Source of the DNA: Acidobacteria bacterium 13_1_20CM_3_53_8
Lineage (GTDB): Bacteria > Acidobacteriota > Blastocatellia > Pyrinomonadales > Pyrinomonadaceae
Length of the DNA: 33,040 bases
Direction: 5' to 3'
Assembly (NCBI GenBank): GCA_001920415.1
Contig: MNJR01000003.1
Span: forward strand, 1-33,040
This document shows positions 23,819 to 31,733 of this stretch, piece after piece. The first letter of the stretch is position 1; each line of letters opens with the position of its first letter. A model generated the notes under the pieces. It was not told the DNA's origin. It searched no databases and saw nothing but the letters and a program-made list of their open reading frames with translations. The position numbers were made by a program, and so were the translations under genes.

Positions 23819-23898
23819 AGTGATGAGTGCAGAGTGATGAGTGATGAATGAAAGACAATTTCTTATTATTCATCACTCATCACTCTGCACTCATCACT
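23819..23898. repeat. Heptamer-armed stem-loop at the dnaX 3' end
   Basis: The arms at 23819-23849 and 23868-23898 are perfect 31-bp reverse complements with an 18-nt loop. They are made of GTGATGA-type heptamers with one variant unit. The right arm contains the dnaX stop codon (TGA read on the - strand at 23896-23894). In a dnaX transcript it would form a very stable terminal hairpin. Confidence 0.92.
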
Positions 23899-24775
23899 GC
23901 TCGTCAATTCTTCTCACGTCAACTATCTCGCCGCGAAATGTGCGCAGCATCTCCTGAACCATTGGATTCTTCTCGGCTATTTCGCGCAGCCGCTGCTTCT
24001 CGCGCGCTTCGGCTTCCTGTTTTGAAATCGCGTGGTCATCGCCTGCGCCCACTTCTTTGACGACAATGCGAACGCTAACATCGCGCCCCAACAGTTCGCG
24101 GCACGCCTCGCGCAACGTCTTGATGCTGTCGGGCTTCGATAGCGTGTCACGCAGGTGTTTTGCGCCGGGCGCGAACTCAACATAAAGCTCGTCTTCTTCT
24201 AAAGCGGAGCGTCGGGCGCCCTCAATCGCAACGGCCAAGAACATGCGCCTTCGTTTTTCCAGAGCCGCTTTCAATTTTTCAACGAACGAATCATTTGACG
24301 AGGCGGCCATTACAGGAGCGCTCGTGCCAACTGCGTCTTCAGGCTCAGTAGAAAAGTCGAAGGGCGCTTCCTCAGTGAATGCTGATGAAGAGTTTTGAGG
24401 AGGCGCGGGAGTTTTCTGAACGAGCGTGAGAGGAGGGCGCTGGGTTGTGCCGCCAACTCCGCCGAACGGTGGCTCTTCTGAAAAAGCCTGTACATCATTA
24501 ACAGCATTTTTCTCAACTTCAACCGCAGAAGCGCGCGACTGGAAGTTGCTAGCCGTACTCTTAGGCTTAGTTGATTTAAGTTGCGAACCGCCGCCAGCAG
24601 CCGCAGCAGGCGGAAGACTGCCGCCTCCCGCCACAGGCGCTTTGCCCGTACGCATAGATTCTTCCAGCGCAGCGAGCCGTTCGAGAATCTGATTGAGCGG
24701 CGCGACTCTGCGCATCTCCATCAATTTCGCCAGACCAATTTCCAGTTGGTAACGAGGATGCGCAGCAGTCTTCAG
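23894..24775 (-). pseudogene. dnaX: dnaX 3' part (tau C-terminal region), out of frame with the 5' part
   Basis: This frame has no start of its own. From about 24775 it resumes recognisable DnaX sequence, [18 protein letters not shown], the last helix of domain III. A low-complexity linker rich in Gly, Pro and Ala follows, then a folded C-terminal region: FVEKLKAALEKRRRMFLAVA, later ELYVEFAPGAKHLRDTL, and finally MVQEMLRTFRGEIVDVRRID. About 290 codons are open and look constrained, so the break is recent, artefactual or bypassed. Joining to the 5' part needs a +1 shift at about 24776. Compared with other DnaX proteins, roughly 27 residues of domain III are also missing at the join. The stop codon lies in a repeat arm. 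Confidence 0.75.
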
Positions 24776-25736
24776 ATTCCTCCGTAGCTGACGAATCGAG
24801 CAGCCCCGTTGCATCGCCAGCAACTTTAGCAACGAGCAGGTCGCGCAAGTGAGCCAAAAGATCACGACAGAAGTTGCGCAAGTCCTGCCCGCGCATCACA
24901 AGATCGTCAACGACGGCGAGCGCTTCTGCCGCCCTTTGTTCAGCGATAGCAAGCACGACGCGCGCAAGCACCTCAGTGCCCGCCAGTCCCAGCGCCGTCT
25001 CGACATCTTCCGCCTTAATTTTTTTGCCCGAAAAGCTTATGACCTGATCGAAAGCCGACTGCGCATCGCGCATAGAGCCTTCGCCCGCTCGCGCAATCTC
25101 ACGAAGCGCGTCCTCGTCAACATCAATCTTTTCTTCTCTGGCAATTCGTCGCAACGCTTCGGCAATCTTCGCCGTAGCAATCGTGCGAAACTCGAACTGC
25201 TGGCAGCGCGACAAGATAGTGTCCGGGACTTTGTGAATCTCTGTGGTCGCCATAATGAAGACTACGCGCGGCGGAGGTTCTTCCAAAGTTTTCAGTAGCG
25301 CATTGAAGGCCGCGCCCGACAGCATGTGAACTTCGTCAATGATGAAGACTTTATAGCGGTCGCGCGCCGGAGCAATCGCAACGTTTCCTATAATCGCGTC
25401 GCGCACGTTGTCAACGCCAGTATTCGACGCCGCGTCAATCTCCATCACGTCAATCGAGCGCCCCTCGGCAATCTCGCTGCACGAAGCGCACGCGGTCGGG
25501 TCGTTCATAGAGCATGGCGTCGCCGTAGGTTTTTCAGATTTATGGCAGTTTAGGGCTTTCGCCAGAAGGCGCGCAGTCGTAGTCTTCCCCACACCTCGCG
25601 CTCCCGAAAAAAGATAAGCGTGATGAAGCCGCTCGTGCTCAATAGCATTCTTGAGCGTGCGCGTTATAGGCTCCTGGCCTGTGACCTCTTCGAATGTTTG
25701 TGGACGCCATTTTCTGGCGATAACTTGGTAAGACAT
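24576..25736 (-). CDS. dnaX: DNA polymerase III gamma/tau subunit, 5' part of a frameshifted gene
   Basis: DnaX is the clamp-loader ATPase of the replicative polymerase. Residues 1-318 are authentic. They include [20 protein letters not shown], Walker A GARGVGKT at 45-52 and a zinc module with C64, C75, C83 and C86. DEVH is at 134-137 and the sensor/arginine-finger motif LSRCQQFEF at 175-183. Domain III then begins ([19 protein letters not shown]). After LLDSSATEE the frame runs 65 codons into a meaningless Cys- and Ser-rich tail and stops at 24576. A 386-residue gamma-like protein would result. The ATG at 25736 fits the family start. It has no clear ribosome site and lies 10 bp from a heptamer hairpin. 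The ffs gene is directly upstream, a common arrangement. Confidence 0.85.
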
Positions 25737-25746
25737 GTGGGTAAAT

Positions 25747-25816
25747 AGTAAATGGTGAATGGTAAATGGTGTCAAGACGTTTCCGTCCATTTACCATTTA
25801 CCATTCACCATTTACT
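25747..25816. repeat. Heptamer-armed stem-loop between ffs and dnaX
   Basis: Perfect 24-bp arms lie at 25747-25770 and 25793-25816 with a 22-nt loop. They are made of the heptamers GTAAATG and GTGAATG. The element fills the dnaX leader: one end is 10 bp from the start codon and the other 11 bp from the 3' end of ffs. Confidence 0.92.
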
Positions 25817-28347: not shown

Positions 28348-29121
28348 TCATTGTACGCCCCCGCGCCCGCGCAGGAAATTTGCCATCTCGGTCTGATTGC
28401 TTTCCATGGCGATGGTTAACGGAGTCTTTCCGTCATCGCCTCTAGCGTTAATGTCGGCCCCGTGATCCAGAAGGAGCTTTGCGAACTCGATTCGACCGCC
28501 GCCCGCGACCTCATGAAGTGACGTGTACCCGCCTTCGCCGCGAGCGTCAACTTCAGCCCCGCGCGCGATTAGCAGCCGAGCTATATCTAGGTGCCCGGCG
28601 ACGGCGGCTGACCTCAGAGGCACAGCCTTCAGCACATTCCTGGAACTGACGTTGACTTTCGCACCGCCGTCCAACAGAGCCTCCACAGTCTCCCTGTGGC
28701 CGAAGAAGGCCGCGAGACCGAGCGGCGTAAAACCGTCCGGCGCGAAGGCGTTCGCCAAGTCAGGGCTGTTTTTGAGGAGAGCGCGCAAGCGCTCTGTACG
28801 TCCTGTAGCAGACGCTTCAAAGATGTTGAGTTCAATCCTCGAAGCGAGTAGCAAGTTGGCTACCTCATTACGACCGTGATAGACCGCTAGTAGCAGAGCC
28901 GAAACGCCGTTCTGATCTGTGGCTGTAGCGAGAGAAGGCTTTTTCTTGAGCAGAACCCGCACCTTCGCCACATCGCCGTCAGTTACAGCCTTAAGGAACT
29001 CTTGCTTCATGTCCACATTATCTTCCCGTCGTTGTGCGTAAGCTTGGCCTGCGTAAAAGAGCGACCACAAAGAGCAGATGACTAAAATGGTCTTGATAAT
29101 TCTGCACGTTCTCCCTTTCAT
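28348..29121 (-). CDS. Exported ankyrin-repeat protein
   Basis: The 257-residue product starts with a signal peptide (MKGRTCRIIKTILVICSLWS, cleavage near YAQ at 30). About six ankyrin repeats follow, including NGVSALLLAVYHGRNEVANL, DGFTPLGLAAFFGHRETVEA, GGYTSLHEVAGGGRIEFAKL and DGKTPLTIAMESNQTEMANF. The repeat order and the unusual second repeat (LNIFEASATGRTERLRALL) match the ankyrin part of the upstream sigma fusion, so the two are paralogous. The ATG at 29121 is chosen for its AAGGAG site about 7 nt upstream; the longer frame has no signal sequence at its start. It lies 28 bp downstream of the sigma fusion, in one operon. It is predicted to bind proteins in the periplasm; partners are unknown. 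Confidence 0.85.
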   Translation of the reverse strand: MKGRTCRIIKTILVICSLWSLFYAGQAYAQRREDNVDMKQEFLKAVTDGDVAKVRVLLKKKPSLATATDQNGVSALLLAVYHGRNEVANLLLASRIELNIFEASATGRTERLRALLKNSPDLANAFAPDGFTPLGLAAFFGHRETVEALLDGGAKVNVSSRNVLKAVPLRSAAVAGHLDIARLLIARGAEVDARGEGGYTSLHEVAGGGRIEFAKLLLDHGADINARGDDGKTPLTIAMESNQTEMANFLRGRGGVQ

Positions 29122-29149
29122 CGTTATCTCCTTCACCGAAGACTTCCAT

Positions 29150-30412
29150 TCATTCGACGCCGCCCATTTGACGAAGAATTTCCGCCTCCTCCTTTTGTCC
29201 CTCTTCCATCGCCACGCGTAGCGGCGTTCGGCCTTCATCATCGTGAGCGTTCGCGCCAGCACCCCGGTCAAGCAAAAGTATGATTAATTCTACAAACCCG
29301 TAGCCCGCAGCGTAATGCAGAGCCGTCCATCCGGCGCGCGGCATGTTTTGACTGCCCCGCCTGGCATTAACGTCCGCCCCATGCTCTATTAACAGTCTCG
29401 CCGTCTCCACTTCGCGCCCGTATAACGCAGCGTGCAGAGGAGTGACCTCTAACTCATTTTTGGAAACAGCGTTGACGTCGGCTCCGCGAGCGAGCAGAAA
29501 TTCGACCACTTCTGCGTGTCCGAAATGAGCTGCCAAAGCTAGAGGCGTGAAGCCCTCCGGCGAATAAGAGTCAAGCGCGCCGTTCCCGCCCAAAAGTTTC
29601 CTTACCAAATCGGTTCTTCCGATTGCCGCCGCTTCATAGATGTCCGGCTGTATGCCGGAACTTAAAAGCAGTTCTGCAACTTCCGTGTGGCCGGAATCCA
29701 CCGCAAGTATTAGAGCCGTGTTGCCGAGCCGGTCTCGCGCACGCAGAAGGCGCGGGTCTCGTTCTAGAAGTTGCTTGACGCGCGCCGCGTCGCCTGTCCT
29801 CGCCGCCTTGAGCATCTGCATTACACTTGCGGCGAACGTCTCGTGGCGCGAGGGGCGCTCGTTTCGCAGACTCTCTTCTAGCACGTCGAAGAGCATGTTG
29901 CGCAGACGCTTGCGCGCTGAGAAGAGTCGCTTCTTGATGGTTGTCGTGGGCGTATCCAAGAAAGCGCCGATCTCTTTCTGTGAATACCCGCTGATGTAAT
30001 AGAGCACAGTCGCGGTGCGTTCGTGTTCGGGCAAAGAGTCAATCGCCTCCCAGAGTCTTTCTTTCATCGCTCTGTGTTCCATCTCTTCCGCTTGATCTGA
30101 CACTTGCGACGCACGGTCCTCAACTGATTGAAGCTGAACGGTCACTAAGCGTAGCCCGCGCGTCATACGGTCGCAGTGCTTGAAGACTATGCGTCGAAAC
30201 CATCCGGGGAAAGCTGCCGTGTCACGCAACTTGTGAAGAGTCCGGTACGCTTCCAGGAACGCTTCCTGCGCGGCGTCTTCCGCCGACTGAAAATCTCGCA
30301 TGATAGCGTAGCCGTAGCCGACGGCCATGTCCTGGAAGCGCCAGACCACCATACCGTAAGCGTCCGCATCGCCCGCGCGCGCGCGTAAGATTAGCGACTC
30401 TAAGCTATTCAT
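29150..30412 (-). CDS. ECF sigma factor fused to C-terminal ankyrin repeats
   Basis: This 420-residue protein has an ECF sigma70 module followed by about six ankyrin repeats. Region 2 is at about 10-85 (YAIMRDFQSAEDAAQEAFLE, then FPGWFRRIVFKHCDRMTR). Region 4 is at about 115-172, with the helix-turn-helix GYSQKEIGAFLDTPTTTIKK. Ankyrin repeats occupy 195-420, including GNTALILAVDSGHTEVAELL, EGFTPLALAAHFGHAEVVEF and GWTALHYAAGYGFVELIILL. The product should direct RNA polymerase to its own promoters, with the ankyrin part as a built-in regulatory or partner-binding domain. There is no membrane segment and no separate anti-sigma gene beside it. The exported ankyrin gene follows after 28 bp. A motif shared with the second ECF gene lies 56 bp upstream. 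No ribosome site is evident. Confidence 0.9.
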   Translation of the reverse strand: MNSLESLILRARAGDADAYGMVVWRFQDMAVGYGYAIMRDFQSAEDAAQEAFLEAYRTLHKLRDTAAFPGWFRRIVFKHCDRMTRGLRLVTVQLQSVEDRASQVSDQAEEMEHRAMKERLWEAIDSLPEHERTATVLYYISGYSQKEIGAFLDTPTTTIKKRLFSARKRLRNMLFDVLEESLRNERPSRHETFAASVMQMLKAARTGDAARVKQLLERDPRLLRARDRLGNTALILAVDSGHTEVAELLLSSGIQPDIYEAAAIGRTDLVRKLLGGNGALDSYSPEGFTPLALAAHFGHAEVVEFLLARGADVNAVSKNELEVTPLHAALYGREVETARLLIEHGADVNARRGSQNMPRAGWTALHYAAGYGFVELIILLLDRGAGANAHDDEGRTPLRVAMEEGQKEEAEILRQMGGVE

Positions 30413-30467
30413 ACGGGTTTATGGTCTTTTGCCCAAGAGCTTCTACAGTAAAGTCCCAACTCAGGGG

Positions 30468-30478
30468 TGAAAGGTTAC
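30468..30478 (-). promoter_or_regulatory. Putative ECF-type -35 motif upstream of the sigma-ankyrin gene
   Basis: On the - strand it reads GTAACCTTTCA, 56 bp before the ATG at 30412. One base differs from the motif upstream of the other ECF gene. ECF promoters typically have an AAC-containing -35 box, so autoregulation is plausible. No matching -10 box could be fixed. The rest of the 165-bp gap to the VOC gene shows nothing else. Confidence 0.45.
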
Positions 30479-30577: not shown

Positions 30578-31204
30578 CTATGCCCCTTCAGGTGATACGT
30601 CCTTCTTGTGAGTAGCGATAATCCAGACGTGCCCGAACGGGTCTGCCAGTTTACCAGCCCGGTCGCCGTAGAATTGGTCTGCCACCGGTATCAGCAGCTT
30701 CGAGCCAGCATTAGTCATTCGCTCGACCAACGCGTCCACATCCTCTACGTAGAGGTGTATGATCACGGCAGATCCGCCGAGCGACTGTGGACTGGGGATG
30801 CCCATCTCCGGGTACTCGTCTGCAATCATAATCCGCGAATCGCCTATCTCGATCTCGGCGTGCCCGATTCTGCCGTCGGGCATCTCCATGCGCGACAACT
30901 CCGTCGCCCCGAACACCTCCTTGTAAAACTCTATGGCGCTGGCCGCATCCTTGAGTATTAAGTAGGGCGTAGCCGTGTGGTAACCTTCCGGCACTGCTTT
31001 CGCTTTGTCTCTCATCATAGCTCTCCTCTCTAATTCGGCCTTCAGTTCTGCTTTGAAATCCTCGCGGGGAAGATCGCGCAAGCTGGCGGCAATGCCTAGA
31101 AGCGCGGCAAGTTTCGGGTCATCTGCCACGCGCGCGGAACTCTCGCGGGCGATGATTGCCTCCACCGCGTTGTCTAGTTGTTCGCTCAAGCTTCGCTTAA
31201 CCAT
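30578..31204 (-). CDS. VOC-family protein with N-terminal sigma-associated helical region
   Basis: The 208-residue product has two parts. Residues 1-65 are helical and charged (SLSEQLDNAVEAIIARESSA, then LAALLGIAASLRDLPREDFK), and resemble the segment seen in proteins encoded beside ECF sigma factors. Residues 75-200 are a VOC/PhnB-like glyoxalase fold with TPYLILKDAASAIEFYKEVF, then GHAEIEIGDSRIMIADEYPE and DPFGHVWIIATH. The ATG at 31204 overlaps the sigma gene stop by 8 bp, so the two are translationally coupled. The N-terminal part may bind the sigma factor and the VOC part may sense a small molecule. That is inference; many such VOC proteins have no known ligand. Confidence 0.8.
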   Translation of the reverse strand: MVKRSLSEQLDNAVEAIIARESSARVADDPKLAALLGIAASLRDLPREDFKAELKAELERRAMMRDKAKAVPEGYHTATPYLILKDAASAIEFYKEVFGATELSRMEMPDGRIGHAEIEIGDSRIMIADEYPEMGIPSPQSLGGSAVIIHLYVEDVDALVERMTNAGSKLLIPVADQFYGDRAGKLADPFGHVWIIATHKKDVSPEGA

Positions 31205-31733
31205 TCGTCTCACCCATGCGCTTCCGCAGATTTTCGAGAGCGCGCAGTTGTAGCTGTTTGACGGCCCCTTCAGTGCGCCCGAGTTCTTGCGCGACCTCGC
31301 GTATACTCCTCTGCTCGGCGAAGCGCATTACTATGACCCGCCGTTGGGCAGGTGGAAGAGTTCCGACAAGCCTGAAGAGGAGTGCGCGCTCTTGCGCTTC
31401 CTCAACATCGTCTTCAGTCAGATTATTCAGGTTGGAAATGGCTTGTTCTTTCGCAGCGCGCTTCCAACGGTCGGCGATGAGATTCGCGGCGATTCTGAAG
31501 AGCCAGGCAGAGAACGGCACGCCGCGCCAGCGAAAGCGCGGGAGATGAGCGAGCGCTTGGTAGAAGACCTCTGCGGTGATGTCCTCGGCCTCGTCGCGGA
31601 CGCCAATGCGGCGTGCGACGAAGGCGTAAACGCGCTCGAAGTTCTGCTCGTATAGGTCGCTGAAGCGGCTAGGGTCTTTCTGCGCCGCCTCTATCAGAAG
31701 CCGCTCAGCCGCCTTTTCTTCAGTTGCTTTCAA
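31197..31733 (-). CDS. ECF-type RNA polymerase sigma factor
   Basis: The 178-residue protein has sigma region 2 at about 20-85 (FSDLYEQNFERVYAFVARRI, then RDEAEDITAEVFYQALAHLP and FSAWLFRIAANLIADRWKR). Region 4 is at about 115-172 (LPPAQRRVIVMRFAEQRSIR, then EVAQELGRTEGAVKQLQLRA). The length is typical of a compact ECF factor without extension. The start is a TTG at 31733; an in-frame stop a few codons upstream leaves no ATG. Its stop overlaps the VOC gene start. The motif GTAACTTTTCA 50 bp upstream is shared with the sigma-ankyrin gene. The divergent MarR-GNAT gene starts 271 bp away. Confidence 0.92.
   Translation of the reverse strand: MKATEEKAAERLLIEAAQKDPSRFSDLYEQNFERVYAFVARRIGVRDEAEDITAEVFYQALAHLPRFRWRGVPFSAWLFRIAANLIADRWKRAAKEQAISNLNNLTEDDVEEAQERALLFRLVGTLPPAQRRVIVMRFAEQRSIREVAQELGRTEGAVKQLQLRALENLRKRMGETNG

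Follow-up and report, generated by a model that had tools for sequence, protein, structure and literature searches.

ECF sigma factors are a main bacterial signaling route, and those carrying on-board regulatory tails are poorly understood. According to a 2022 review, at least 26 ECF groups have extensions, 15 of which are unstudied (PMC8999054). ECF41 members possess a C-terminal extension and no anti-sigma factor, are regulated by their tail, and act on a single target transcript whose promoter is conserved (PMC3426412). For ECF42 and ECF57, repeat tails (TPR and WD40-like, respectively) were proposed to control the sigma factor via protein-protein contact (PMC8999054). ECF promoters have AAC in the -35 element, and the majority of ECFs autoregulate (PMC3426412, PMC8103513). 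Among exported ankyrin (ANK) proteins, AnkB of Pseudomonas aeruginosa is described, as cited in PMC7567364, as a periplasmic protein needed for full activity of the catalase KatB. No ankyrin-tailed ECF was found in the open papers searched, and an earlier mention may exist.

Such a protein is encoded in the stretch of DNA analyzed here (the window, 33,040 nucleotides of the genome of a soil member of Acidobacteriota, contig MNJR01000003.1). The gene at 29150-30412 on the minus strand, hereafter sigma-ANK, encodes 420 aa with sigma2 at residues ~25-76 (Sigma70_r2 at 25-76), sigma4 at ~118-170 (Sigma70_r4_2 at 118-170), a linker RPSR at ~186-189, and an ANK tail at ~191-420 (Ank_2, E=4e-39). Both sigma domains passed the Pfam cut-off and are the only ones present, as defines an ECF, and TIGR02937 matched with 74.8 bits at a cut-off of 42.9. 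The fusion reported by the initial annotation was thus confirmed, and its estimate of about six repeats was fair, as the tail in the AlphaFold model (pLDDT 80) consists of seven helix-pair units. Since the pTM of 0.55 leaves the placement of the tail relative to the sigma domains uncertain, control by the tail is argued below by analogy. Orthologues of the protein were 62-75% identical.

The next gene (28348-29121, minus strand) starts with ATG at 29121, preceded by GGAG, and encodes a 257-aa protein with a signal peptide at ~1-29 (AYA/QRR) followed by six to seven ANK units (AlphaFold pLDDT 94). It was assigned by Pfam, signal-peptide features, orthologues and alignment to the sigma tail. The two genes are separated by 28 bp (29122-29149), which contain the ribosome-binding site GGAG and in which the terminator scan found no terminator-like site on the minus strand. 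These coordinates and sequence features agree with the arrangement first described, and the operon was supported. Signal peptides were judged by simple sequence features. A hydrophobic core and an A-x-A type site made them plausible in all five intact downstream copies, and none was present in the five free-standing ANK relatives checked.

The pair was located by searching relatives, the class and named genomes, all analyzed as metagenome assemblies. The initial annotation had proposed searching for sigma-ankyrin fusions followed by an exported ankyrin gene, and this arrangement was recovered in every carrier: in six of six genomes from three families of the class (the window, G012 (L042), G036 (L043), G510 (L044), G506 (L098) and G503 (L045)), sigma-ANK lies directly upstream of the exported gene. 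With adjacent copies in six genomes, the pairing exceeds what chance would give. The distribution is patchy, these being the only carriers among 162 genomes of the class. In G503 the sigma/ANK junction falls in an assembly gap, beyond which a fragment of the downstream ANK gene is found. The distance between the two genes in G036 is 167 bp; this gap (L043:7258-7424) holds an inverted repeat (GTTTGGAGTACCGC...) and resembles a small inserted repeat element. A sigma-domain profile run against 297 genomes of the phylum (E 1e-40) returned only the window and one weaker case. Plasmids were also considered as a home of the fusion, and the search found none.

Apart from the pair itself, no neighbor recurred in the relatives. 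In the window the pair is flanked by genes for a DUF1330 protein and a VOC protein, and in other carriers by genes for MarR, DUF2238, an NTF2-like protein or a penicillin-binding protein. As originally noted, no anti-sigma gene adjoins the pair in the window, and the same holds for the relatives examined.

Several other genes of the window deserve mention. The product of 30578-31213 (minus strand) begins with ~80 aa (SLSEQLDNAVEAIIARE...) that match no Pfam family and continues with a glyoxalase (VOC) domain; it may combine an anti-sigma-like part with a domain for ligand binding. A BldN-like ECF gene (31197-31733, minus strand) overlaps it by 17 bp. The dnaX gene for DNA polymerase III gamma/tau (23894-25790, minus strand) occupies two frames, 24576-25790 and 23894-24865. 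Some residues seem to be lost where the frame changes, and a slippery sequence is not evident; an assembly error or gene breakage is the probable cause.

A candidate ECF-type autoregulatory promoter is located upstream of sigma-ANK at 30451-30476 (minus strand), with a -35 element AACCTTT (30470-30476), a spacer of 12 nt, and a -10 element GGGACTT (30451-30457). All 14 positions and the spacer length were identical in the six carriers, 64-82 nt ahead of the start codon, and the rest of the 150 nt upstream was poorly alike among the six genomes. In shuffled upstream regions any gapped word of 5+5 nt was common to at most two of six. The -35 element has the AAC typical of ECF promoters, separated by 16 nt from the -10 element; GGGACTT differs from the textbook CGT. 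An exact match occurs once in the window's genome, at the operon. The operon carried the sole exact match in five of the six carriers, and four genomes without the pair had none. The extra match in G012, 307 nt before a Fur-family gene, was set aside, as one site in ~38 Mb is near chance. Since the exact promoter is sole in five carriers and absent from the four non-carriers, sigma-ANK probably acts mainly on its own operon, and autoregulation of the two-gene operon with few other strong targets would be the simplest reading. Counts of one-mismatch sites did not exceed the reversed-pattern control in most genomes, and therefore we claim no regulon beyond the operon; one made of weaker sites may exist.

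The sigma core, recognized by the motif RFQDMA and often by the linker RPSRxxxF, has relatives in at least seven phyla (Acidobacteriota, Poribacteria, Latescibacterota, Planctomycetota, Chloroflexota, Armatimonadota and Nitrospinota). A tail of some kind was found on each of the 30 close members examined. These tails include ANK arrays of several lengths, GNAT with DUF3471 (L021), HEAT (L060), and further ones that Pfam did not recognize. About five changes of the ANK label were counted on the sigma tree, of which well-supported branches force only one. A promoter-like element matching at 11 or more of the 14 positions within 100 nt upstream was present in 14 of 26 held-out members; nine of these 14 are near relatives within Chloroflexota, and for that reason the pooled p-value is too favorable. 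L054, L059, L060, L062 and L070 are separate cases for which no control window was as good. The family appears as one sigma core with interchangeable tails and, in several members, a similar promoter. Neither the promoter nor this wider modular family was part of the initial annotation. Tails swapped among ANK, GNAT, HEAT and others on one core and promoter style amount to a natural domain-swap experiment.

Outside Acidobacteriota, no family sigma gene was followed by a gene for an ANK protein. In Chloroflexota (L049-L053, L055, L057, L058, L061, L071), sigma-ANK genes have a longer ANK tail, and the next gene, on the opposite strand, is conserved and probably encodes a membrane protein (MLGRILSPIRAF...); several of these sigma genes are preceded by a promoter-like TGAACCTTTC-N12/13-GGCTCTTTA. 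G012, which carries the sigma-ANK pair, additionally has a gene with the same sigma core and GNAT and DUF3471-like parts (L021:2576-4435, minus strand).

The sequences show a fused sigma-ANK gene, its conserved pairing and a conserved promoter; on this basis we favor with reasonable confidence a self-contained autoregulated ECF module in which the tail would be the on-board regulator and the exported ANK protein the output. The sigma factor would bind AACCTTT-N12-GGGACTT before its own gene and drive the two-gene operon, other strong targets being few or absent. In place of an anti-sigma factor, the ANK tail may hold the sigma factor off or stabilize it, and binding or release of a specific cytoplasmic protein at the conserved surface of the tail would change the state of the sigma factor. 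The exported protein, made when the sigma factor is active, may be an envelope protein-binding or chaperone-like protein with a partner of its own.

The initial annotation had instead supposed that one ANK module was duplicated and that the two copies, on opposite sides of the membrane, recognize a partner of the same type. This explanation draws on adjacency and on the alignment of the two arrays (48% identity over 223 aa, E=1e-60), which confirmed the shared repeat order and a short atypical repeat common to both (DIYEAAAIG / NIFEASATG). That repeat proved to be the signature, DI(Y/F)EAAA-x-G, of a widespread bacterial ANK family of ~230 aa to which both arrays belong. Among 396 genomes of the phylum, 12 others have free-standing members of this family, and the window's own genome has one more (L041). 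In the ANK tree the sigma-tail clade (100/100) and the exported clade (84/76) were surrounded by free-standing proteins. The phylogenetic check suggested for the duplication gave a divided answer: forcing the two clades together cost 3.3 log-likelihood units and was not rejected (p-AU 0.124), but no supported branch unites them, so that their sister grouping is neither shown nor rejected. Mean identities were 42% between sigma tails and exported proteins, 39% between sigma tails and free-standing proteins, and 41% between exported and free-standing proteins; pairs from one genome resembled each other no more than pairs across genomes (mean 0.436 vs 0.435). An old duplication is possible, as is one that did not take place in situ. 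The exported clade also occurs without the sigma gene, in G017 (with a signal peptide), in G486 (without one) and in G501 behind a TPR-like region. The last of these genes (L100:3868-5373, minus strand) has a signal-peptide-like start ahead of the TPR-like region and the ANK array, and no sigma neighbor.

A common partner is further disfavored by the predicted contact surfaces. Twenty-seven ligand-contact positions of the ANK fold (DARPin-type positions 2, 3, 5, 13 and 14) were chosen from the DARPin convention before counting, with residues assigned by eye. Sigma tails and exported proteins agreed at 22% of these positions and at 47% elsewhere (p=0.00025, the frequency of random position sets as low), and sliding the set by 1 to 8 residues never reached 22%. 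Sigma tails agreed with one another at 75% of the contact positions, N231, S240, H296, W362 and Y371 being among the conserved ones, and exported copies agreed with free-standing proteins at 44% of contact and 45% of other positions. Hence, the exported protein apparently retained the older surface, and the sigma tail apparently acquired a conserved one of its own. A single duplicated module with one type of partner was thus left unsupported in both its parts, and we regard it as improbable. A Foldseek search returned ankyrins and DARPin-containing entries. Divergence of the surfaces argues against a shared ligand, not against binding of the sigma tail and the exported protein to each other. 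The exported protein might regulate the sigma factor, its precursor or cytoplasm-retained form binding the tail or the partner of the tail and so reporting the state of secretion or of the envelope. Strict co-occurrence with sigma-ANK in the six genomes and the lack of an anti-sigma factor are in keeping with such a role, and autoregulation would close the loop; the evidence against a common ligand weakens it, and we hold it to be unlikely. We are similarly doubtful that the tail is a mere stabilizing or recruiting appendage, with the sigma factor regulated purely at the level of transcription or through an anti-sigma factor encoded elsewhere. The many different tails borne by relatives of the sigma domain speak for this view, but the contact surface is conserved within the sigma-tail clade, and varied tails on all 30 close members are as expected of interchangeable sensors. 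A bolder extension is speculative: the pair may represent a new class of one-operon envelope sensors lacking an anti-sigma factor, a branch of the cross-phylum family with swappable tails, in which readout of the ECF tail occurs by, or against, an exported ANK protein that shares its autoregulated promoter. Because the sequence already defines the tail and its conserved contact surface, as well as the target promoter and the probable main target, two genes and one promoter suffice to test directly how a repeat tail senses.

Returning to the self-contained module, the comparison with ECFs bearing C-terminal extensions, already drawn by the initial annotation, was upheld. MzaA of the MZA anti-phage system, named by NCBIfam as a sigma-70 family factor, has ankyrin similarity near the N-terminal end of its profile. 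This identity was rejected, as NF041931 scored 66.8 bits against a cut-off of 800 and matched in the ANK part only; the PADLOC and MzaA hits reflect generic ANK similarity. By its description, AnkB is likewise an exported ankyrin protein encoded in an operon, but no catalase gene adjoins the exported gene here. Typical ECFs have a cognate anti-sigma gene next door, although not universally, unlike sigma-ANK in the window and its relatives. With ECF42 and ECF57 our protein shares a repeat-protein tail, the repeat being ankyrin only (Pfam) instead of TPR or WD40-like, and it differs from both in being paired with an exported homologue. The conserved YCII-type neighbor of ECF42 has no counterpart, the DUF1330 neighbor of the window's pair not being conserved in relatives. 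ECF41 is similar in its sigma2-sigma4 architecture with a C-terminal extension, the lack of an anti-sigma gene, a conserved neighbor gene and a very small promoter-defined regulon (PMC3426412), the last predicted from sequence in our case. The ECF41 tail is SnoaL-like, whereas that of sigma-ANK is ankyrin (Pfam); its neighbors are COE genes (carboxymuconolactone decarboxylase, oxidoreductase, epimerase) vs. ANK, DUF1330 and VOC here, and the promoters differ. By analogy, sigma-ANK would work like ECF41, ECF42 and ECF57 while belonging to none of them, as their defining tails were sought and not found. Ankyrin tails add to the known ways in which ECF switches carry their own control domain.
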